A stretch of 41,799 nucleotides of DNA from Ruminococcus sp. (GTDB lineage Bacteria > Bacillota > Clostridia > Oscillospirales > Ruminococcaceae): positions 1 to 41,799 of the forward strand of contig NZ_JAFYYT010000030.1 of the NCBI RefSeq assembly GCF_017549005.1. The letters are read 5' to 3'. Positions 340 through 33,539 of this stretch are shown here, in pieces. The translations under genes were made by a program, and so were the position numbers. Position 1 is the stretch's first letter. Each line of letters opens with the position of its first letter. Under the pieces are notes generated by a model, which saw nothing but the letters and a program-made list of their open reading frames with translations, was not told the origin of the DNA and did no database searches.

Positions 340-3300
340 ATGAAAAAACGTATTATCAGTCTTGCAAGTGCAGCAGTATTTGCTTTATCAGGCATAAGCG
401 GCAGTATTTCGGCGGCATATGCTGCTGAATCGGCTTATCCCTCCGTGGCGGAAGCTGACACCCTATCGGAATACAGCGCTCTCTGGAGCTGGAGCAATTG
501 CGCAGACCATATAGAAATGATGGGGTATTACGGAAACAGCGCCGATGTAGTCATACCGGATACGATAGAAGGACTTCCTGTAACTTCTGTGAGCGCTGGC
601 TGCTTCGCGGAAAAAGCCGATATTGTCAGGTCTCTGTATATCCCTTCAACGGTAACGGAGATCAGCGGTGTTACGGGTGGACTCCCAAACCTTGAAAAAG
701 TGGAGACAGATGAGGGGAATACGAGCTTTATATGCCAAAACGGCGGCGTATTTACTGCTGACGGGAAAGTTCTGCTCAGATGCCTTACCTCTGTGGAGGG
801 GGAATTCAGTATTCCCGATACGGTGGAGCGTATTGAGGAAAATGCGTTCCTGAACTGCAAGAAGCTCAAAAGTATAAACGTCGGCGAAAATAATGAGTAT
901 TTCACAGGCAGGGACGGCGTTTTATTCGATAAATATATGGAAAGTCTGCTGAAGTTCCCAATAGGCAGCGTGAACGTCAGCTATACCGTTCCCGACGGCG
1001 TAATGGAGATAGCTCCCCATGCCTTCGATGACGCCGACAGCCTTGAAAAGCTGGAAATATCGGCTCGTGCGGAGATAATCGGCGACTATGCGTTCTATGG
1101 CTGCGATAAGCTTAACAATGTCGTTATACCCGACAATGTCCTGGATATAGGAGAGAGTGCGTTCCGGAACTGTACAGGGCTTTCTGATATCACCTTTTCT
1201 ACGGAAACTATTTTCGTAGGTGAGTGGGCAGTCTCGGGAACTCCATGGTACGAGGCTCAGCCCGACGGAGTTGTCTATACGGGAGCTGTGCTTTACAAGC
1301 TGAAAGGCCGTCTGCCCGAGAATTCAGAAATAGTTGTCAGGGAAGGAACTGTCAGCATAAACCGCTGCGCCTTTGACAGCGGCCTCGACGGACCGACAGC
1401 TGGCGATCCTGACCTTATATCCGTAACTCTGCCTGACAGTGTCAGGTACATAGGCGAGAAGGCTTTTTTTGACTGCGAGAGCCTGAAGAAGATAAATCTC
1501 CCCGACAGCATTGAAAAAATAGGGGAAATGGCTTTTGCCTCATGTCTTGCGCTTGAAGAGGTGCATATCCCTGCATCGCTTGATGTGATAGAAGCCGGGA
1601 CCTTCCTTTCATGCAGTTCTCTTAAAAAGCTGACTGTTCCCAAAAATATCAGTGTGATCAGGGACGGCGCTTTGGGGGACTGCCGCTCTCTTGAGTCTGT
1701 TGTTTTTGAAAACGCCTACTGCATTGCTTATGAGCCGCTTGAGTATTATTCACTGAGTTCGGGGTATGTCGCTTTCAGCGGAACTATATACGGATATGAA
1801 GACTCTTATGCTCAGTATTATGCCGAAAGTAAAGGCTATTCCTTCGTTTCTCTCGGTAAATTGCCGAAGGAAGAAGCAATTTCCTTTGAATATGAGAAAA
1901 ACGACACCTGGAAATGGCTGAACTGCAAGGAATATGTACTGGTCTCGGCATATTACGGCGACTGTGAAGTCATAGAGCTCCCCGATAAGCTGAACGGACT
2001 TCCTGTTCGTGGAGTTGACGGCTGCCTTGAGGTATCCGAGCCAGACAGGGTCAGGACTGTAAAGATACCTGCCGGTATTGAAGATATCGGTGAAATGTTT
2101 GATGGCCTCCGCAATATATCCGAAATTGAGGTGGACAAGGACAATAAGTCATTGGCCGTTGAAAACGGCGTATTATACACAGCTGACAGGAAATCGCTCA
2201 TAAAGTGCATTCCTGACAAGGTCAGGGGCGGGTTCAGCATTCCCGGTACAGTTACATATGTTCATAAAAATGCATTCAACGATTGTTCGGGTCTGACAGT
2301 ACTGAATGTTCCCGCATCTGTGCAGAGTATGAACTGCAGTTTTACGCGCTGCGACTCTCTTGAAGCAGTAAACGTTTCAAAAGTCAATAAGAGTTTCAGC
2401 AGTATCAACGGCGTAGTATTCAATAATGGAGCAACTCTGCTCTGTAAATATCCTCCGAAACATCCCGGCAAGAGCTATAAGCTCCCCGAAAGTGTCAGCA
2501 GCATTGATGCGGGCGCCTTTGAAAACTGTGACGCACTTGAGAGCATAGTGTTTACAAATAATGTGACGGGGATCCATGACAGAGCTTTTGCAGAATGCGA
2601 CAAGCTCGATAACGTTGAGCTGCCCGAAAGACTGATATATATATCCGATCATGCCTTTGAAAACTGCAAAAGCCTGAAAAGTATCAAGGTGCCGGATGAA
2701 GTTACCAGTTTTGGTGCGGATGTATTGAAAGGAACTGCCTGGCTTGAAGCTCAGGATGACGGCCCTGTATACTGCGGAACGCTGTTCTACGGCATAAAGG
2801 GCGAGCCTGAGAAGCTGACGGAGATCACCGTAAAGGAAGGTACAAAATGCATAGCGGCTAAGGCTTTCAGCTTTGAAAAGCAGGATAAGAACGGCGGTAC
2901 AGTATATGAAAATGCTTACCTCAGGTCGGTGATACTGCCAAAGGGTCTGAAGTATCTTTGTTCAGGCGCTTTTATGGGCTGTTCGGCGCTTACGTACGTT
3001 GAGCTGCCCGATGATGTTTTGAAAGTAGATGGGCAGACCTTTTCAGGCTGCAAGTCACTTAAAGACATCGTCGTTTCCAAAACCGATACGATAATACGGA
3101 ATAATGAGTATTCGGGCTGCGATTCGCTGAAAAACGTGATCGTTCCCGAAAATATCAATTATATCGACTGTAAGGCCTTCGTGAACTGCGCTTCGCTTGA
3201 ATCGGTAACTGTACTGAATCCCGAATGCAGTTTCTATGATTCTTCAGATACTATCTGCAATAAGATCATTTATCCCGGGGAGCACGAGGACAAAGAGACC

Positions 3301-5499
3301 GTCGTTTATAACGGAACTATATACGGCTATGACGGCTCAACAGCGGAGACTTTTGCAAAGGGAGCCGGATATAAGTTCGTTTCTCTCGGAAAAGCTCCAA
3401 GCGATTACGAGCTCGGCGATATAAACGTGAACGGTATTGTCGACGCAGTTGACGCTTCAATGGTGCTGGCTTATTATGCAAAGATATCCACAAATTCGGA
3501 CGGCGGATTCAATGCAGGTCAGCAGGTTGCGGCAGATGTGAACCGGGACGGCATAATAGACGCAGTTGACGCCTCGAAGATACTTTCCTACTATGCATAT
3601 GCTTCGACCGCAAAGGGAAAGCTGCAGAATATTAGTGAGTTCCTTTCGGGCATAAGAGTGTTTGCAGGCTTTGATGCAGGCGGAACTATCAGAAATGTGG
3701 TCGGAGCTTCTGATGGTCAGGTAGTTGTCGGCTGCGAAGATAAGAGCGGAAATACCTGTTATGTGTTCGATACCCTCAATGATAAGATATTGAGGAGCAT
3801 AAATCTTTCGGACAGGGATGAAATGCTCATCGGAATGTTCGCAGGCGGAACAGTCGTCACATGGAAAAAGACTTATGCGGATGAGAAGAACAAGCTGAAA
3901 ATGTACCCTGCAAACGGCGGTGAGCCATATGAAGTGGATACGGGTTCTGCGGGATATACCGAGTGGTGGTTCGACAGCGAAACTGATAATATATACTGGG
4001 TCTCCTATACTGATGACAGTATTATGAAGATAAATGAAAAGGGCGAGAAGAGCAGGCATTTATCCCTGTCAGGATTCATCAATGCATATTTTTATTTGCA
4101 TGAAAAAGGAGTATTCGTCGGCGGAAAGACTTCAGATAAAACTGAGATCGGCGTGGAATACGGTCTGTACTCTGTGGTCACGGGTGAACTCATAGCGCCT
4201 ATGTGCGAAGAAAATTCTGATGTCTTCCTTACGAAGGATAGCTGCGTCAGCCCTTATTCCGTCGGAAACGACCGCGATTACTACATTAAAGCCTCTGATA
4301 CCAGCGGAAACAGCCCCGACAAGTATTATAAGCTCACACTGGCGGAACCTGGCATGCTGCAGTTTATAAGCAGCAGCAAAAGCAGTTATTTACTTACGAA
4401 AACAGGTGCAGGCAACAGGCTGTTTTTTACCGACGCTGTTAACGGTAAGACTGTATACGGTGATGTCAAAGAGCTAAATACTGCATATGTCAATGAAGAC
4501 TGCTGCTATGTTACCGACGGTAAATGGATAATCGGCATGAACGAGATGTATTCCGTCACAAAAAGCAATTCCCTTGTGATGGTAGACCCAGGCAGGCTCA
4601 ATTACAGCGTAAAGCTTAAAAATGCTGATGGAAAGGTGTTTGAAAAGACAGGCCCCGTCGAAGTTGGTGAGAAGTTCAAGGAAATACGTGCGGAGGCTGA
4701 CAAGATCGAAGAAGAGTTCGGTATCAGGATACTTGTGGGCAACGAGGTCAAAAATGCAGAAGCAGGCTCAGAATACAGTTTCGGCTCTACAGAGGCGTAT
4801 ACAGATGAAAGTTCGCTTCAGTACGAAAAGGACAGCTTGAAAAACCTGAGAGAAACGCTTTCACTTTACCCTGAGGGGTTTTTCAGCCGCTTCAATAAAG
4901 AAAACGGGCAGATCGGTCTGAGAATATCTCTTGTCCGCGAGCTCATAGGTAAAGACGGTTCTAAATTCAAAGCGGGAGGAGTTGCATTTGCTTCGTTCGG
5001 CTGGTATGAAATCGCCATACTGAGCAGGCAGACATCAGAGAATTGTACGACCCTTCACCATGAGATATGGCATTCAGTGGAAAGAATGATCAGCGAAAAG
5101 TACGGCTCCATAGATGAGGAGGAGTGGAAGAAACTCAATCCCGCAGACTTTGATTATTCCGCTGATTTTGAGGAGTATGCTGAAAACGACGAAAAAGGCA
5201 TGAATGTTCATACCTTCTATAATGCCATAGAAAAGTCAGAGCCACAGTATGATCTCCCGTATTTTGTCTCGGATTACAGCATGGTCACAGCCTATGAGGA
5301 CAGAGCTACCCTCATTGAGCTGCTTTTCCTGTGGGATTACGACACGGCCAACAGAATAATGTATCGCTACAGCGAGGAGTATATCAAAAAATATCCTCAC
5401 CTGAAGGCAAAGCTGGAGTTCCTTGAGAACTGGTCGAAAAAGGAGTTCGGCTATGTTTACTGGCAGAAAATGCTGGAAAATATGGAGAAAACAAGATAA
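340..5499 (+). CDS. Secreted leucine-rich-repeat (BspA type), dockerin and zinc-metallopeptidase-like protein
   Basis: The 1719-residue protein starts with a signal peptide (residues 1 to about 29, ending in SAAYAAE). Two large blocks of BspA/LRR_5 repeats follow, about residues 45-505 and 523-1020. Both blocks open with a W-x-W-x-N-C segment and close with a TIYGY...FVSLGK segment, so the region is an internal duplication. A dockerin with two Ca-loops (GDINVNGIVDAVD and ADVNRDGIIDAVD) occupies about 1024-1095. It is followed by a beta-rich, propeller-like part and a C-terminal domain with HEIWH at 1574-1578, a classic HExxH zinc site; the Glu of the later EDRA at 1653-1656 is a possible third ligand. 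The dockerin should anchor the protein to a cohesin. LRR_5 domains commonly mediate adhesion. Peptidase activity is inferred from the motif only. The gene is monocistronic and followed by a terminator. Confidence 0.85.
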   Translation: MKKRIISLASAAVFALSGISGSISAAYAAESAYPSVAEADTLSEYSALWSWSNCADHIEMMGYYGNSADVVIPDTIEGLPVTSVSAGCFAEKADIVRSLYIPSTVTEISGVTGGLPNLEKVETDEGNTSFICQNGGVFTADGKVLLRCLTSVEGEFSIPDTVERIEENAFLNCKKLKSINVGENNEYFTGRDGVLFDKYMESLLKFPIGSVNVSYTVPDGVMEIAPHAFDDADSLEKLEISARAEIIGDYAFYGCDKLNNVVIPDNVLDIGESAFRNCTGLSDITFSTETIFVGEWAVSGTPWYEAQPDGVVYTGAVLYKLKGRLPENSEIVVREGTVSINRCAFDSGLDGPTAGDPDLISVTLPDSVRYIGEKAFFDCESLKKINLPDSIEKIGEMAFASCLALEEVHIPASLDVIEAGTFLSCSSLKKLTVPKNISVIRDGALGDCRSLESVVFENAYCIAYEPLEYYSLSSGYVAFSGTIYGYEDSYAQYYAESKGYSFVSLGKLPKEEAISFEYEKNDTWKWLNCKEYVLVSAYYGDCEVIELPDKLNGLPVRGVDGCLEVSEPDRVRTVKIPAGIEDIGEMFDGLRNISEIEVDKDNKSLAVENGVLYTADRKSLIKCIPDKVRGGFSIPGTVTYVHKNAFNDCSGLTVLNVPASVQSMNCSFTRCDSLEAVNVSKVNKSFSSINGVVFNNGATLLCKYPPKHPGKSYKLPESVSSIDAGAFENCDALESIVFTNNVTGIHDRAFAECDKLDNVELPERLIYISDHAFENCKSLKSIKVPDEVTSFGADVLKGTAWLEAQDDGPVYCGTLFYGIKGEPEKLTEITVKEGTKCIAAKAFSFEKQDKNGGTVYENAYLRSVILPKGLKYLCSGAFMGCSALTYVELPDDVLKVDGQTFSGCKSLKDIVVSKTDTIIRNNEYSGCDSLKNVIVPENINYIDCKAFVNCASLESVTVLNPECSFYDSSDTICNKIIYPGEHEDKETVVYNGTIYGYDGSTAETFAKGAGYKFVSLGKAPSDYELGDINVNGIVDAVDASMVLAYYAKISTNSDGGFNAGQQVAADVNRDGIIDAVDASKILSYYAYASTAKGKLQNISEFLSGIRVFAGFDAGGTIRNVVGASDGQVVVGCEDKSGNTCYVFDTLNDKILRSINLSDRDEMLIGMFAGGTVVTWKKTYADEKNKLKMYPANGGEPYEVDTGSAGYTEWWFDSETDNIYWVSYTDDSIMKINEKGEKSRHLSLSGFINAYFYLHEKGVFVGGKTSDKTEIGVEYGLYSVVTGELIAPMCEENSDVFLTKDSCVSPYSVGNDRDYYIKASDTSGNSPDKYYKLTLAEPGMLQFISSSKSSYLLTKTGAGNRLFFTDAVNGKTVYGDVKELNTAYVNEDCCYVTDGKWIIGMNEMYSVTKSNSLVMVDPGRLNYSVKLKNADGKVFEKTGPVEVGEKFKEIRAEADKIEEEFGIRILVGNEVKNAEAGSEYSFGSTEAYTDESSLQYEKDSLKNLRETLSLYPEGFFSRFNKENGQIGLRISLVRELIGKDGSKFKAGGVAFASFGWYEIAILSRQTSENCTTLHHEIWHSVERMISEKYGSIDEEEWKKLNPADFDYSADFEEYAENDEKGMNVHTFYNAIEKSEPQYDLPYFVSDYSMVTAYEDRATLIELLFLWDYDTANRIMYRYSEEYIKKYPHLKAKLEFLENWSKKEFGYVYWQKMLENMEKTR

Positions 5500-7721: not shown

Positions 7722-7769
7722 AGAAACATGAGATTGTGTTTTTTTATATTATTTAAAGGAGGAAAGAGA

Positions 7770-10373
7770 ATGAAAAAAAGTATTTCAACTCTCTTGGCGG
7801 CAGTAATGGCGTTTTCAGCATTAGGCGCTATGCCGGTATCTGCCGCCGACCAGGACTATCTGCTTCACAGCACCTTTGAAGAAGGTACTGACTCATGGAG
7901 CGGCAGAGGCTCTGCTTCTGTAAAGGTAGTCTCAGGCACATCACGCTCGGGAGAATGCTCGCTTCTTGCAAGCGGCAGAGCAAGTGCCTGGAACGGCGCT
8001 ATCGTAGGATTGGGTTCAGGCTTTAAGGCAGGTAACGACTACTCATTCAGCGCTTATGTAATGAGCGAGGAGGAATCGGCAACATTTTACCTCACGCTCC
8101 AGTACAGCGACGGAAGCAGTACCAAATATCCCAAAATAGCTGAGGTGGCAGCTGAAAAGGGAAAGTGGGCTCACCTTGAGAACAAAAGCTTTACGATCCC
8201 CGCAGGAGCGTCAGATATCCAGCTCTACATCGAGACTGATGACAGTACCTGCAATTTCTATGTCGATGAAGTTGTCGGCGCGGCGAGCGGCACAGAGATA
8301 GGAGAGCCCTCGGCGCCTGTTGCAATGCACAAGGGCGACATCAATTATGACGGAAAGATAGACTGCTTTGATATCGTTCTTGCAAGAAAAGGTCTTATCA
8401 ACGGTATCGAGGACAAGAAGGCCCTGAAAGCAGCCGACGCGGACAGCAGCGGAGTTTTCGATCTCACGGACGCTCTGCTCATTATGAAGTTCGTTATGGG
8501 AAATATTACCGAATTCCCAGTGGTAGAGCCTGAGGTAGTACCGGGTCAGCAGAAGTACACTATGGAGGAGCTTACCAAGATAGTGCAGGATTCGCTGGTA
8601 AACAATGAGCCAAATGATTCTCATATGAAGAAACAGGGCGTTCAGTACGGTACGATAAAGAAGGAGACTTACTTCTCCAAGAAGGCAAACAAGAACAAGC
8701 CTTATAATATACTTCTTCCCGCAAACTATGACGAGAGCAAGAAGTATCCCGTACTCTATGTTCTCCACGGCTTCTTCGAGAACGAGAACCGTATGATAAC
8801 ACAGGGCAACGGTCAGATGTATACACAGCAGATCATCGGAAACGCTATCGCCGAGGGCGCAGCCAAGGACATGATAGTAGTTGTACCGTTCGTATTCACG
8901 AGCGCAACAATGAACGACGCTACAGGCTTCGCGGATCAGGGCTCGAATGAGGGCTATGACAACTTCGTTGACGATATCGTGGACAGCCTTATGCCGCATA
9001 TCGAGAGCAAGTACAGCGTTGCTACAGGCAGAGAGAACACAGCTGTAACAGGCTTCTCAATGGGCGGACGCGAGTCGCTCCAGATAGGCATGAAGCACGG
9101 TGACAAGTTCGGCTATGTAGGAGCTATATGTCCTGCACCCGGAGCTTCGGGATCATGGAAGTGGAGCAATGCTGATGAAACTCCGTATCTCATTATGATA
9201 ACAGGCGGAACTCAGGACGATGTTGTCGGACTGAATACTCCCGAGGGCTATCATAACAACTTTACAAAGAACAACGTTCCTCACGTATGGCACGTTGTAA
9301 ACAACGGACACCACGGCGACGACTCCATCCACTCGCACCTCTACTGCTTCGTAAGAGGCATATTCCAGGCAACTGAGGGAACTGTCTCACCGGCAAGCAG
9401 CAGTAACAATCAGTCAAATACAGGAAACAACAACCAGTCCAATACGGGAAATAACAACCAGTCAAATACAGGAAACAACAACCAGTCGAACACAGGCAGC
9501 AACAGCTCAAACACGACTAATTCCCAGACTTCAACAGGTCAGCAGAAATATACTATGGAAGAACTTACCAAGAAGGTGCAGAACGCACTTGTAAACAACG
9601 AGCCCAATGATTCTCACATGAAGAAACAGGGCGTTCAGTACGGCACTATCAAGAAGGAGACCTACTTCTCCAAGAAGGCAAACAAGAACAAGCCTTATAA
9701 CATACTTCTTCCCGCAAACTACGACTCCAGCAAGAAGTATCCCGTACTCTATGTTCTCCACGGCTTCTTCGAGAACGAGAACCGTATGATAACACAGGGC
9801 AACGGTCAGATGTATACACAGCAGATCATCGGAAACGCTATCGCTGAAGGCGAGGCGAAGGACATGATAGTAGTTGTACCGTTCGTATTCACGAGCGCGA
9901 CAATGAACGACGCTACAGGCTTCGCGGATCAGGGCTCGAATGAGGGCTATGACAATTTCGTTGACGATATCGTGGACAGCCTTATGCCACACATCGAGAG
10001 CAAGTACAGCGTTGCTACAGGCAGAGAGAACACAGCTGTAACAGGCTTCTCAATGGGCGGACGCGAGTCGCTCCAGATAGGCATGAAGCACGGCGACAAG
10101 TTCGGTTATGTAGGAGCTATATGCCCTGCACCCGGAGCTTCGGGCTCATGGAAGTGGAACAGCGCAAGTGAAACTCCGTATCTCATTATGATAACAGGCG
10201 GAACTCAGGACGATGTTGTCGGACTGAATACTCCAGAGGGCTATCATAACAACTTTACAAAGAACAACGTTCCTCACGTATGGCACGTTGTAAATAACGG
10301 ACACCACGGCGACGACTCTATCCACTCGCACCTCTACTGCTTCGTAAGAGGCATATTCCAGGCAACTGAATAA
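7770..10373 (+). CDS. Secreted CBM22-dockerin protein with two tandem CE1 esterase domains
   Basis: I chose the ATG at 7770 because AAAGGAGG (7756-7763) sits 6 nt before it and a signal peptide follows; an upstream in-frame ATG at 7728 adds 14 unlikely residues. Order in the 867-residue product: signal peptide 1-27; CBM22-like xylan-binding module about 28-180; dockerin about 188-249 (GDINYDGKIDCFD, ADADSSGVFDLTD); CE1 domain A 260-536; Asn/Gln/Ser/Thr/Gly linker; CE1 domain B 591-867. Each CE1 domain has GFSMGG with nucleophile Ser430 or Ser761 and a His-rich NNGHHGDDS segment for the catalytic His. CE1 enzymes are feruloyl or acetyl-xylan esterases; the exact acyl group is not readable. The two domains differ at only about 8 of 277 residues. 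Confidence 0.92.
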   Translation: MKKSISTLLAAVMAFSALGAMPVSAADQDYLLHSTFEEGTDSWSGRGSASVKVVSGTSRSGECSLLASGRASAWNGAIVGLGSGFKAGNDYSFSAYVMSEEESATFYLTLQYSDGSSTKYPKIAEVAAEKGKWAHLENKSFTIPAGASDIQLYIETDDSTCNFYVDEVVGAASGTEIGEPSAPVAMHKGDINYDGKIDCFDIVLARKGLINGIEDKKALKAADADSSGVFDLTDALLIMKFVMGNITEFPVVEPEVVPGQQKYTMEELTKIVQDSLVNNEPNDSHMKKQGVQYGTIKKETYFSKKANKNKPYNILLPANYDESKKYPVLYVLHGFFENENRMITQGNGQMYTQQIIGNAIAEGAAKDMIVVVPFVFTSATMNDATGFADQGSNEGYDNFVDDIVDSLMPHIESKYSVATGRENTAVTGFSMGGRESLQIGMKHGDKFGYVGAICPAPGASGSWKWSNADETPYLIMITGGTQDDVVGLNTPEGYHNNFTKNNVPHVWHVVNNGHHGDDSIHSHLYCFVRGIFQATEGTVSPASSSNNQSNTGNNNQSNTGNNNQSNTGNNNQSNTGSNSSNTTNSQTSTGQQKYTMEELTKKVQNALVNNEPNDSHMKKQGVQYGTIKKETYFSKKANKNKPYNILLPANYDSSKKYPVLYVLHGFFENENRMITQGNGQMYTQQIIGNAIAEGEAKDMIVVVPFVFTSATMNDATGFADQGSNEGYDNFVDDIVDSLMPHIESKYSVATGRENTAVTGFSMGGRESLQIGMKHGDKFGYVGAICPAPGASGSWKWNSASETPYLIMITGGTQDDVVGLNTPEGYHNNFTKNNVPHVWHVVNNGHHGDDSIHSHLYCFVRGIFQATE
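8547..9377 (+). repeat. Direct repeat copy A (CE1 domain 1)
   Basis: 831 bp encoding residues 260-536. It is repeated at 9540-10370 with the same length and long stretches identical at base level, including third codon positions. This points to a recent duplication or ongoing gene conversion. Confidence 0.95.
9402..9497 (+). repeat. Four 24-bp tandem repeats in the inter-domain linker
   Basis: Four copies of a 24-bp unit encode (S/N)NNQSNTG. They form the flexible linker between the two CE1 domains. Differences between units are almost all at third positions. Confidence 0.9.
9540..10370 (+). repeat. Direct repeat copy B (CE1 domain 2)
   Basis: Second copy of the 831-bp CE1 unit, encoding residues 591-867 up to the stop codon. 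Residue changes from copy A cluster at the N-terminal helix and in the loop after GSWKW. Confidence 0.95.
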
Positions 10374-30328: not shown

Positions 30329-30358
30329 TTATAGTCAGTGCGGACTATAACTTTTTTG
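30329..30358 (+). promoter_or_regulatory. Candidate operator or attenuator in the DtxR-like leader
   Basis: TTATAGTC (30329-30336) and GACTATAA (30343-30350) form a perfect 8-bp inverted repeat with a 6-nt centre, followed by CTTTTTT. It lies just past the predicted transcription start. As DNA it could be the binding site of the regulator it precedes; as RNA it could be a small terminator. Confidence 0.5.
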
Positions 30359-30373
30359 TAAAGGAGAATCAGA

Positions 30374-30751
30374 ATGGCTATTACCGAAGCAGTTGAAAAC
30401 TACCTCGAAACTATACTTATACTCTCTCAGAAGCAGCCCGATGTCCATGCTATCGACATATGCTCGTATCTCGGGTATTCCAGGCCGACTGTGTCCATAA
30501 TCCTCAAGAAAATGAAGGACGAGGGGCTCGTTACGGTCGATGATGATAACCACATCAGGCTCACGGATACCGGAAAGGACGTAGCTGAGCGCATTTACGA
30601 CCGCCATACGGTCCTTACCGACCTCTTCATTTGTCTCGGAGTCAACCGCGATGTGGCTGCCGAGGACGCCTGCATGGTCGAGCATGATATCTCTGACGAG
30701 ACCTTTGAATGTCTGAAGGCTCATTACAAAAAGCTTTCGGAGGGCAAGTGA
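30374..30751 (+). CDS. DtxR/MntR-family metal-dependent regulator, short form
   Basis: The 125-residue protein matches the N-terminal half of DtxR/MntR/IdeR regulators: AVENYLETILILSQ, a winged helix (HAIDICSYLGYSRPTVSIILKKMKDEGLV), DDDNHIRLTDTGKDVAERIYDRHTVLTDLF and EDACMVEHDISDET, which holds the metal-ligand region (Glu, Cys, His). Length is nearer MntR than DtxR; no SH3 domain. Relatives repress Mn or Fe uptake. Here it starts an operon with two peptidoglycan-type genes, 32 nt ahead of the MurL homologue, not with a transporter. Confidence 0.88.
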   Translation: MAITEAVENYLETILILSQKQPDVHAIDICSYLGYSRPTVSIILKKMKDEGLVTVDDDNHIRLTDTGKDVAERIYDRHTVLTDLFICLGVNRDVAAEDACMVEHDISDETFECLKAHYKKLSEGK

Positions 30752-30783
30752 GGTCACTGCTGATTCTTTTTCGGAGGGTCTAA

Positions 30784-32166
30784 ATGGGTAAATTTGAAGA
30801 ATTAAGGGAAAAATATCCCGTTTTTATTTATAAGGCGTATTATGTTAACGAAACCAGGGATACCGTGGAGATAGGCTATGAGTTCTCGGTGCCGCAGCTA
30901 GCGGAGTTCCGCCCGAGCTGGAGTTTCCGCAAGCCCGAGGGCTTCAAGGTAAAGGGCGACCTTTGCTTTGAGAGGCTGGCTTTTTCGCTGGGTATGGCGG
31001 AGGCTGTAAGCTACTGGAAAGCTACCTGTTCTCCCGAGTTCCGCGTGGAGTGCGGAGAGCTCGACGACGAGCAGATAAACTGGTGGAAGAAGCTGTGGTT
31101 CATGGGACTTGGAGAGCTTTTCTTCGTCAACGGCATATCTGCGGATTTCGACAGCTTTGTGAAGATAGTCCCCACAGGTCATTACGACAGCTCCCTCAGG
31201 GAGTTCTACCGTGAGCGCGAGGGCTGCCTTGTGCCTATAGGCGGCGGAAAGGACTCCGCCCTGACACTTGAGACTCTGCTGAGGGCAGGGAAGAAGTGCC
31301 TGTGCTATTCTATCAATAAGCGCCGCTCCATAACCGATACAGTCCTGACAGCAGGACTTCCCGAGGAAGCGCTTATCATCTCTCACCGCCACTTTGACCG
31401 CTCTCTTATCGCACTTAACGAAAAGGGATTTATCAACGGTCATACGCCGTTTTCGGCGATAGTTGCGTTCTCTGCGGAGATAACGGCTTACCTCAACGGA
31501 CTTAAATATATCGTCCTTTCCAACGAATCCAGCGCCAACGAGAGCACTGTTGTGGGTCAGGACGTCAATCACCAGTACTCGAAGAGCTTCGAGTTCGAGC
31601 AGGATTTCCATGAATATGAGGAGAAATATCTGCGTACAGGACAGTATTATTTCAGCTTCCTGCGTCCTCTTGCGGAGTTCCAGATAGCAAAGATGTTCGT
31701 TTCACACAGGAAGTACCTGTCCGTTTTCAGGAGCTGTAACCTCGGCAGCAAGGTCTCGCCCGATATATGGTGCGGAGAGTGCCCGAAGTGCCTGTTCATA
31801 AGCCTTATCCTTTCGCCGTTCCTCAGTCTTGCGGAGCTCAGGAAGATTTTCGGCAAGGATATGCTGAGCGACCCTAAAATGAGGGAATACTTCATCGAGC
31901 TCATCGGTCAGTCCGAGCATAAGCCTTTCGAGTGCGTGGGCAGTATCGACGAGGTGAATTTAGCAGTATCACTGGCTATACGCAGGCTGGAACAGGAAGG
32001 GGAGGAGCTCCCTTTGTTGCTTGCGGATTACAAAAAGCGCGGACTCTATCATCCCGAGCATATTGATATGCTCAATGCGGAGTGCTGCGGTTCGTTCAAC
32101 GAGCAGAATCTCCTGCCCGACGAATTCAAGACTATTCTTACTAAGGAAATGGAGCGTCTGCTTTGA
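30784..32166 (+). CDS. murL: MurL-type UDP-MurNAc-L-Ala-L-Glu epimerase
   Basis: The 460-residue protein follows MurL, the enzyme that epimerises the terminal L-Glu of UDP-MurNAc-L-Ala-L-Glu to D-Glu using ATP in Xanthomonas oryzae. Features: an N-terminal domain (PVFIYKAYYVNETRDTVEIGYEF), a PP-loop-like ATP site GGGKDS (153-158), INGHTPFSAIVAF, SNESSANE, and a C-terminal CGECPKC (Cys 330, 333, 336). It overlaps the next gene, a MurD homologue, by 4 bases, which is the partner expected for this route. Start set by GGAGGG 5-6 nt before ATG 30784. Family assignment is from recalled sequence features; the exact epimerisation is inferred. Confidence 0.82.
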   Translation: MGKFEELREKYPVFIYKAYYVNETRDTVEIGYEFSVPQLAEFRPSWSFRKPEGFKVKGDLCFERLAFSLGMAEAVSYWKATCSPEFRVECGELDDEQINWWKKLWFMGLGELFFVNGISADFDSFVKIVPTGHYDSSLREFYREREGCLVPIGGGKDSALTLETLLRAGKKCLCYSINKRRSITDTVLTAGLPEEALIISHRHFDRSLIALNEKGFINGHTPFSAIVAFSAEITAYLNGLKYIVLSNESSANESTVVGQDVNHQYSKSFEFEQDFHEYEEKYLRTGQYYFSFLRPLAEFQIAKMFVSHRKYLSVFRSCNLGSKVSPDIWCGECPKCLFISLILSPFLSLAELRKIFGKDMLSDPKMREYFIELIGQSEHKPFECVGSIDEVNLAVSLAIRRLEQEGEELPLLLADYKKRGLYHPEHIDMLNAECCGSFNEQNLLPDEFKTILTKEMERLL

Positions 32167-33539
32167 ACAAATTCTGCGAATATATAAAGAAATACACCGA
32201 GGGAAAGACGGTATGCATACTGGGCTTCGGCAGGGAAGGAAAGTCTACGTGGAAGATACTGGAGAAGTACTGCTCGCCGGAGGCGGTAGCCATAGCTGAC
32301 CTCAATCCCGTTGACAGGGAGGCAAACGGACTTCCCGGGAGCGTTGAGCTTATATGCGGTAAGGACTACCAGAAATGCCTTGACCGCTTCGATATGGTGT
32401 TCAAGAGCCCGGGTATCGTCCTCGAAAAGAGCCTTCCGGAGCTTAAATGCATGATAACCTGCGAAACACAGGTGTTCTTTGAGGTGTACAGGGAGCAGAT
32501 AATCGGTATTACGGGAACAAAGGGCAAAAGTACCGTTACATCGCTGATATACCACGTTCTCCATGAGAGCGGCGTGGACTGCCGTATCGCTGGAAATATC
32601 GGTATTCCCGTGTTTGACATTGCAGAGGGCATGAACGATGACACGGTCGTTGTCTGCGAGCTCTCCTGCCACCAGCTCGAATATATGACCGTATCCCCAA
32701 GGTCGGCGATATTCCTCAATCTCTATGAGGAGCACCTCGACCACTACGGCACTATGGAGAACTACTACAATGCCAAGAAGAACATTTATCTTCATCAGGA
32801 CGTATGCGATGTCCTGTGGTGCAACAGCAGCATTGTTTCCGATGATATGCCGTCTATTGTGGTAACTGTCTCGAATACCGACGATTCCGCCGACGTTTAC
32901 GTTGAGAATGGCGTGGTATGGGACTCGGACGACGAGGATTACGAGATACCCACCGATAAGATAAAGCTTCTCGGAACTCACAACCATTACAATATAGCCA
33001 TTGCGTGGGACGTATGCAAGGATCTCGTTGAGGAGGAGGACTTCACAAAGGCTCTGTGCAGCTTCGATCCCCTTGCTCACAGACTGGAATTTGTTGATAC
33101 GGTGAGAGGTATACGCTGGTATGACGATTCTATCTCAACTGCCTGTGCTACGGCAATATCGGCATTGCAGAGCGTTCCTAAGGTGGGAACAATACTCATC
33201 GGCGGCATGGACAGAGGTATCGACTATCAGTCCCTTGTGGACTTCCTTTCGGGCTTCGATGTGCGCGTTATATGCATGGAAGCTTCGGGCAGGCGCGTGT
33301 ACGATATGATACAGGCGAGCGGCTCTTTCAGCAATAAGGAGCGTGTTCACTACGCAGACCACCTTGCGGAGGCTGTGAAGCTTGCCGCGGAGATAACTCC
33401 CGAGGGCATGAGCTGCGTTATGTCGCCTGCGGCGGCAAGCTACGGTATTTTCAAGAACTTCGAGGAGCGCGGCGACGCTTTCAAGAAGCTCGTGAACGAG
33501 CTAAGGACTAAGAATTACGAGCTAAGAACCAGGAACTGA
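32163..33539 (+). CDS. MurD-like ligase, likely L-glutamate-adding MurD2
   Basis: The 458-residue Mur ligase has an N-terminal Rossmann part (VCILGFGREGKST), the ATP loop GTKGKST (118-124), CELSCHQLEY, NLYEEHLDHYG, GTHNHYNIAIA and DDSISTACATA, in the normal Mur order. MurD joins glutamate to UDP-MurNAc-L-Ala. Because it shares an overlapping operon with MurL, this copy probably adds L-Glu (MurD2) rather than D-Glu. A start codon TTG at 32163 overlaps the murL stop in TTGA, with GGAG 8 nt upstream. The last 13 residues (NELRTKNYELRTRN) look like translated intergenic repeat. Substrate choice cannot be read directly. Confidence 0.85.
   Translation: MNKFCEYIKKYTEGKTVCILGFGREGKSTWKILEKYCSPEAVAIADLNPVDREANGLPGSVELICGKDYQKCLDRFDMVFKSPGIVLEKSLPELKCMITCETQVFFEVYREQIIGITGTKGKSTVTSLIYHVLHESGVDCRIAGNIGIPVFDIAEGMNDDTVVVCELSCHQLEYMTVSPRSAIFLNLYEEHLDHYGTMENYYNAKKNIYLHQDVCDVLWCNSSIVSDDMPSIVVTVSNTDDSADVYVENGVVWDSDDEDYEIPTDKIKLLGTHNHYNIAIAWDVCKDLVEEEDFTKALCSFDPLAHRLEFVDTVRGIRWYDDSISTACATAISALQSVPKVGTILIGGMDRGIDYQSLVDFLSGFDVRVICMEASGRRVYDMIQASGSFSNKERVHYADHLAEAVKLAAEITPEGMSCVMSPAAASYGIFKNFEERGDAFKKLVNELRTKNYELRTRN

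Follow-up and report, generated by a model that had tools for sequence, protein, structure and literature searches.

A canonical MurD needs D-glutamate (D-Glu), supplied by the glutamate racemase MurI or by a D-amino-acid transaminase. In Xanthomonas oryzae another pathway has been described, formed by the ligase MurD2 (XOO_1320) and the epimerase MurL (XOO_1319) (PMC8788868, PMC5808125). According to these two papers, MurL has no known conserved domains, requires adenosine triphosphate (ATP) and yields adenosine monophosphate (AMP); the ligation and epimerisation reactions and the AMP are published results, and an adenylate intermediate is the authors' hypothesis. PMC8788868 places the route in Gammaproteobacteria, Alphaproteobacteria and rare actinobacteria, describes it as present in rather few genera and regards it as a target for drugs of narrow spectrum; PMC5808125 mentions low-similarity MurL orthologues in a fungus, cyanobacteria and an amoeba. 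Here, we analysed a stretch of 41,799 nucleotides of Ruminococcus sp. (NCBI RefSeq assembly GCF_017549005.1, contig NZ_JAFYYT010000030.1), called the window below, which carries a MurL homologue (30784..32166, + strand, 460 amino acids) followed by a MurD2-type ligase (32163..33539, + strand, 458 amino acids). Very probably, this pair constitutes the MurD2/MurL branch of peptidoglycan synthesis, by which alone the cell obtains its D-Glu residue. The ligase would attach L-Glu first, and this L-Glu would be flipped to D-Glu afterwards.

As an earlier note on this DNA had claimed, the first protein is a MurL homologue with a GGGKDS loop. It matches NF041275, the NCBIfam model for MurL of Xanthomonadales, with an E-value of 3.8e-69 and 233 bits over residues 69-398 (model positions 64-393 of 447), and the GGGKDS PP-loop lies at residues 153-158 (31240..31257, + strand). 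The motifs GGGKDS, NHQYSK, SCN, WCxxCxKC and KPFECxG are common to the window protein and MurL of Xanthomonas sacchari (NHQWSK there). Each of six motif patterns was matched in 136/136 MurL loci, a few contigs being counted twice in this number, with Xanthomonas and Pseudonocardia included; the partner of the ligase has all the MurL motifs examined. The ligase scores 308.7 bits against the NCBIfam murD model TIGR01087 (cut-off 211.95). Its TTG start lies inside the MurL stop, and the overlap of 4 bases given in the earlier note is indeed present as the shared TTGA. On the same models, the X. sacchari proteins reach 836.5 bits (MurL, NF041275) and 298.3 bits (MurD2, TIGR01087). In X. sacchari, too, MurL precedes and overlaps the ligase.

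According to PMC8788868, E197, R358, P433 and F435 of X. oryzae MurD2 correspond to D182, K348, A414 and L416 of E. coli MurD, and the exchange E197D/R358K converts MurD2 into a D-Glu enzyme. As in MurD2, the window ligase has Glu (E190, codon 32730..32732, + strand) and Arg (R351, codon 33213..33215, + strand) at E. coli positions 182 and 348. At 414 and 416 it has Ala and Tyr, unlike the Pro and Phe of Xanthomonas; X. sacchari MurD2 shows E, R, P and F as published for X. oryzae. Among the MurDs linked to MurL (119 loci including the window and X. sacchari, 117 of them distinct since two were fetched twice), all 119 have Arg at position 348; at position 182, 113 have Glu and six have Asp. 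The comparison set of 32 MurDs (E. coli, a Streptococcus chain, 27 from MurI-using genomes and three second copies from MurL genomes) reads N/K in 29 cases, D/K in two and T/R in one, so that E182 occurs in none, R348 in one and both together in none. Two MurL genomes, G496 and G574, have their sole over-cut-off murD on another contig, yet it reads E/R, and in two further MurI users MurD reads N/K; the residues therefore track the route and not mere linkage. Position 319 was also considered as support and rejected. K319T lets E. coli MurD accept L-Glu, as stated in PMC8788868, and the window ligase has Ile there, but Ile is equally found in 119/119 linked and 30/32 comparison MurDs, which makes the position uninformative.

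A quick MurD tree was built without the four specificity columns. It comprised X. sacchari MurD2, all 32 comparison MurDs and 57 out of the 118 linked MurDs from hosts other than Xanthomonas. One branch (Shimodaira-Hasegawa-like approximate likelihood ratio test, SH-aLRT, 98) sets the 57 linked MurDs apart from all other rows, and a second (support 76) does so for the 32 comparison MurDs. The window ligase groups with the MurL-linked MurDs and away from those of MurI-using relatives. The canonical system shares with the window the MurD family and the product step, but differs in that MurI-using relatives carry a MurD of another clade, which reads N/K (one D/K) in place of E/R. Since the five MurI-using members of the genus have a MurD of the canonical clade, the whole ligase has been exchanged rather than point-mutated.

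The source genome (3,332,348 bases, 56 contigs, 93.77% complete) was then searched for other sources of D-Glu. In this assembly, from which about 6% of the genome may be missing, neither the glutamate racemase model TIGR00067 nor the Asp/Glu racemase domain PF01177 gave a match. A single protein belongs to the class-IV aminotransferases (PF01063). It is a branched-chain enzyme of the IlvE type, with 490 and 419 bits and thereby over the cut-offs of two branched-chain aminotransferase models, and reaches 45 bits against the D-amino-acid transaminase cut-off of 277, so no such transaminase was found over cut-off. TIGR01087 gave seven matches in the genome; the window ligase is the one over the cut-off and the next best is MurC. 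Of the 14 control genomes included in these searches, the two racemase models gave matches in 10 and the murD model gave matches in 12. The searches proposed in the earlier note, for murI, a D-amino-acid transaminase and a second murD, thus returned nothing over cut-off in the source genome, and the D-Glu supply that a canonical MurD needs from MurI or the transaminase was not found there. Elsewhere in this genome (L262:7358-9432, contig C11), a GatD-MurT-like pair was seen by eye, which would amidate the alpha-carboxyl of the D-Glu that this route yields.

These results bear on the alternative that the ligase is an ordinary D-Glu-adding MurD, fed by MurI, a D-amino-acid transaminase or an unknown racemase, with MurL having another job. 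Such an enzyme would be expected to exceed the murD cut-off, as the window ligase does (X. sacchari MurD2 does likewise), and the ligase is the single murD of its genome and 29% identical to E. coli MurD; three MurL genomes moreover hold a second MurD of canonical type. Against this stand the lack of any MurI, PF01177 protein or D-amino-acid transaminase over cut-off in the source genome, MurI over cut-off in 0/51 high-quality own-genus MurL genomes, the E/R residues, and the linkage, in places fusion, of MurD to MurL. We regard this alternative as very improbable.

To place the locus among its relatives, genomes were drawn by class (391), family (197) and genus (100); the draws overlap, and the source genome is in all three. 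In the class draw MurL was found in 16/391 genomes, and in these 16, the only ones searched for it, MurI was over cut-off in none (two weak matches). The family draw holds MurL in 19/197 genomes and MurI over cut-off in 163/197, distributed as 0/19 MurL genomes versus 163/178 others. Fisher's test gives p 1.4e-17, a value that overstates independence, since the genomes within a draw are related and the test treats them as independent. In the genus draw, 86/100 genomes have MurL (with partial matches in G606 and G618) and six have MurI over cut-off, namely 1/86 with MurL and 5/14 without; nine have neither, and none of these exceeds 90% completeness. Of the 55 high-quality genomes of the genus, 51 have MurL only, three MurI only, one neither and none both. 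A wider scan of genome collections yielded at least 80 MurL loci, by title from Bacteroidota and from Clostridia-type and Erysipelotrichaceae-type bacteria, with a few lacking such a title. MurI was over cut-off in 0/50 of the top-ranked 50 among the 80 listed, for which completeness was not given, and 15 weak matches were seen. Weak TIGR00067 matches also occur in eight of the 19 MurL genomes of the family draw (E-values 2.6e-4 to 1.3e-9). Seven weak matches in MurL genomes, taken from the class draw, the genus draw and the named set, were identified, with eight of the family draw and 11 of the named set outside this selection; all seven are amino-acid racemases over the cut-off of TIGR00035, and for these seven a reading as MurI was rejected. 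MurL and MurI are thus nearly mutually exclusive among the relatives, occurring together almost never, and the routes are swapped between species within one genus. The shift away from MurI in a Firmicute, which the earlier note anticipated, stands in that no MurI was found. As a lone case it does not stand, given 86/100 genomes of its own genus and many Bacteroidota.

Could the absence of murI be an assembly gap, with MurL and MurD2 as a spare route? The source genome is 93.8% complete, and one member of the genus, G633, holds both routes; yet in high-quality genus genomes MurI occurs in 0/51 with MurL versus 3/4 without MurL, which makes this explanation highly improbable.

Several observations weigh against the reading of the pair as MurD2/MurL and the sole route. 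The 233 bits of the window MurL are far under the NF041275 cut-off of 700, although this model is named for Xanthomonadales and the cut-off therefore tests that subgroup. Six linked MurDs, the window's not among them, read D/R, resembling the specificity-altering E197D. Overall identity gives no signal for placing the ligase with Xanthomonas (26% to X. sacchari MurD2 versus 29% to E. coli MurD), and a placement on this basis was rejected. In the tree, X. sacchari MurD2 lies between both groups on a long branch and joins the linked clade weakly (76). The comparison with MurD2 and D-Glu MurD suggested in the earlier note therefore favours MurD2 by the E/R residues and the linked clade, but not by identity or by a firm union with Xanthomonas. 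As for the sole route, G633, which is 74% complete, holds MurL and MurI together (its ligase beside MurL is of the E/R type), and 3/36 MurL genomes without MurI have a second MurD of the N/K type. These three (G029, G062 and G235) combine MurL, an E/R ligase and an N/K MurD, with no MurI found; their second MurDs are at L138, L139 and L135 and their MurL loci at L050, L049 and L048, respectively. By eye, a canonical murD stands beside M42-peptidase-like genes both in the MurI user G662 (L261:6295-8711) and in G029 (L264:6035-8531); the neighbours of the canonical murD of G235 (L263) differ from this setting. The L-Glu-first route proposed in the earlier note is supported by the E/R residues, by the linkage to MurL and by a source genome in which no MurI was found.

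Gene order supports the pairing as well. MurL and MurD are adjacent in 23/23 own-genus loci (the window and 22 others, with 86 own-genus MurL genomes known) and in 28/30 other loci of the class and family, one MurD being cut by a contig end; the pair is thus not due to chance. In the named set, 70 of the 80 listed loci show the adjacency, two are cut, and L220, one of the ten without it, ends just past MurL. Two loci encode MurL-MurD fusions in a single open frame, L045:6475-9531 (1019 amino acids) and L211:1524-4223 (900 amino acids), which are 42% identical to each other.

MurL-like proteins were also seen on Pseudonocardia plasmids (L247:3812-5209 and L248:3854-5245), beside a WD40 protein and with no MurD annotated within 4 kilobases; perhaps these have a different substrate. 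Such MurD-less homologues indicate that the family may have other roles, but that the window pair itself makes a secondary product (a peptide with an epimerised residue) and not cell wall is barely credible, as the MurD step is required for peptidoglycan, the window ligase is the only over-cut-off murD found in the source genome, and no biosynthetic cluster was seen around the pair by eye, without a dedicated scan.

With respect to the mechanism, MurL appears to be related to PP-loop enzymes. The window MurL alone found no solved relative in the PDB at E-values up to 1. A profile of 43 MurLs matched PP-loop enzymes at GGGKDS, namely TtuA (E-value 1.6e-4) and MnmA (E-value 0.5-0.9). Searched singly against Pfam, 39/43 MurLs weakly match DUF6395 (best E-value 1.9e-4) and 6/43 weakly match QueC (best E-value 0.018); the best match of the window protein is DUF6395 with 14.8 bits (cut-off 25). 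An hhalign comparison of MurL with a QueC profile, built from E. coli QueC and seven phage relatives of which one lacks the cysteines, gave 78.3% probability and an E-value of 1.8e-5 over 196 columns that span the PP-loop and four cysteines. Controls gave 0.5% for the reversed profile and at most 1.7% for 20 column shuffles. With E. coli QueC alone the probability fell to 5.9% (E-value 0.0064), which counts against the relation, and this alignment is co-linear and also joins the PP-loop and cysteine sites. In the window, the cysteines aligned with those of QueC form the SCN...WCGECPKC site (C318, C330, C333 and C336; 31732..31791, + strand), and all four are invariant in a 43-row MurL alignment. 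Like MurL, QueC and related ATP pyrophosphatases have a GGxDS PP-loop followed by a C-x(n)-CxxCxxC site. They differ in that MurL adds about 150 N-terminal residues and conserved blocks of its own, and the relation is visible by profiles only. These likenesses support, but do not prove, a QueC-like adenylating core in MurL, and a PP-loop ATP pyrophosphatase of this kind would be consistent with the reported AMP formation. MurL may then adenylate the alpha-carboxylate of the ligated L-Glu, with AMP released in the end. We infer that the window proteins act as the Xanthomonas pair does, including the steps on the adenylate.

In a quick MurL tree (78 of the 136 loci), one branch with support 100 splits Bacteroidota from Bacillota, and X. 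sacchari falls into a set of three rows (support 99) in which its nearest neighbours are two Pseudonocardia proteins. Compared with the Xanthomonas pathway, the window shares the order and overlap of the genes, the E/R residues, the conserved MurL motifs and the lack of a detected MurI. It differs in its Clostridia host, in the identity to the X. sacchari proteins (28% for MurL, 26% for MurD) and in the DtxR-type gene at the head of a trio. No report of MurL in Bacillota or Bacteroidota was found among the open-access papers listed, subscription literature not being covered; two papers that name 'Murl' beside gut bacteria appear to misspell MurI. The route itself is already known. As far as this literature was searched, the Bacillota and Bacteroidota hosts, the exchange within a genus and the two MurL-MurD fusions are new. 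We think it likely that MurL-MurD2 is a widespread D-Glu module in Bacillota and Bacteroidota of gut, rumen and sediment type, one that is exchanged for MurI and canonical MurD even within a genus and is occasionally fused, and in which a QueC-like MurL would epimerise via a carboxyl-adenylate. Should the route also operate in many Clostridia and Bacteroidales of gut and rumen, commensals would be hit by inhibitors of MurD2/MurL, and these bacteria would produce no free D-Glu via MurI. The PP-loop relation offers a testable model for the mechanism of MurL, and one genus with species on either route is a natural comparison.

The gene leading the trio (30374..30751, + strand, 125 amino acids) encodes a DtxR/MntR-type regulator, and its coupling to the pair, which the earlier note pointed out, is real as gene order: it directly heads the trio in 23/23 own-genus loci and in 0/30 other class and family loci, one of which (L044) has a DtxR-like gene more than 5 kilobases off. 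Both DtxR domains of MntR/DtxR regulators are present over their Pfam cut-offs (PF02742, 48 bits, cut-off 27; PF01325, 38.2 bits, cut-off 26), the best PDB match is E. coli MntR (2h09, E-value 1.7e-14), and the protein is strongly conserved across the 23 own-genus copies. N9, E12, H78, C100, E103 and H104 align with the metal sites of E. coli MntR and DtxR, positions which we take to be metal ligands. The Asn corresponds to an Asp of E. coli MntR and a Met of DtxR, and the Cys is as in DtxR; since the residues match neither regulator fully, no metal can be assigned. Going by gene order alone, this protein probably regulates the trio. A palindrome seen by eye upstream of it, TTATAGTC-N6-GACTATAA at 30329-30350, is present in one exact copy in the window, and 16 of 100 shuffled versions contain a site with no more than 3 mismatches. 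Near the gene in 22 own-genus relatives, no site keeps more than 12/16 arm bases (in L112 and L115 only 2 bases lie upstream of the regulator reading frame as called). As it is not kept in these relatives, the palindrome was rejected as a conserved operator.

Elsewhere in the window, dockerin-like segments were read by eye in encoded proteins, which would fit the Ruminococcus-type host suggested in the earlier note. Two proteins of secreted type stand out. The first (340-5499, 1719 amino acids) has segments that resemble leucine-rich repeats and dockerins, as well as a C-terminal HExxH-like stretch. The second (7728-10373, 881 amino acids) has a dockerin-like segment and an esterase-like domain that is duplicated in tandem, with the two copies nearly identical.

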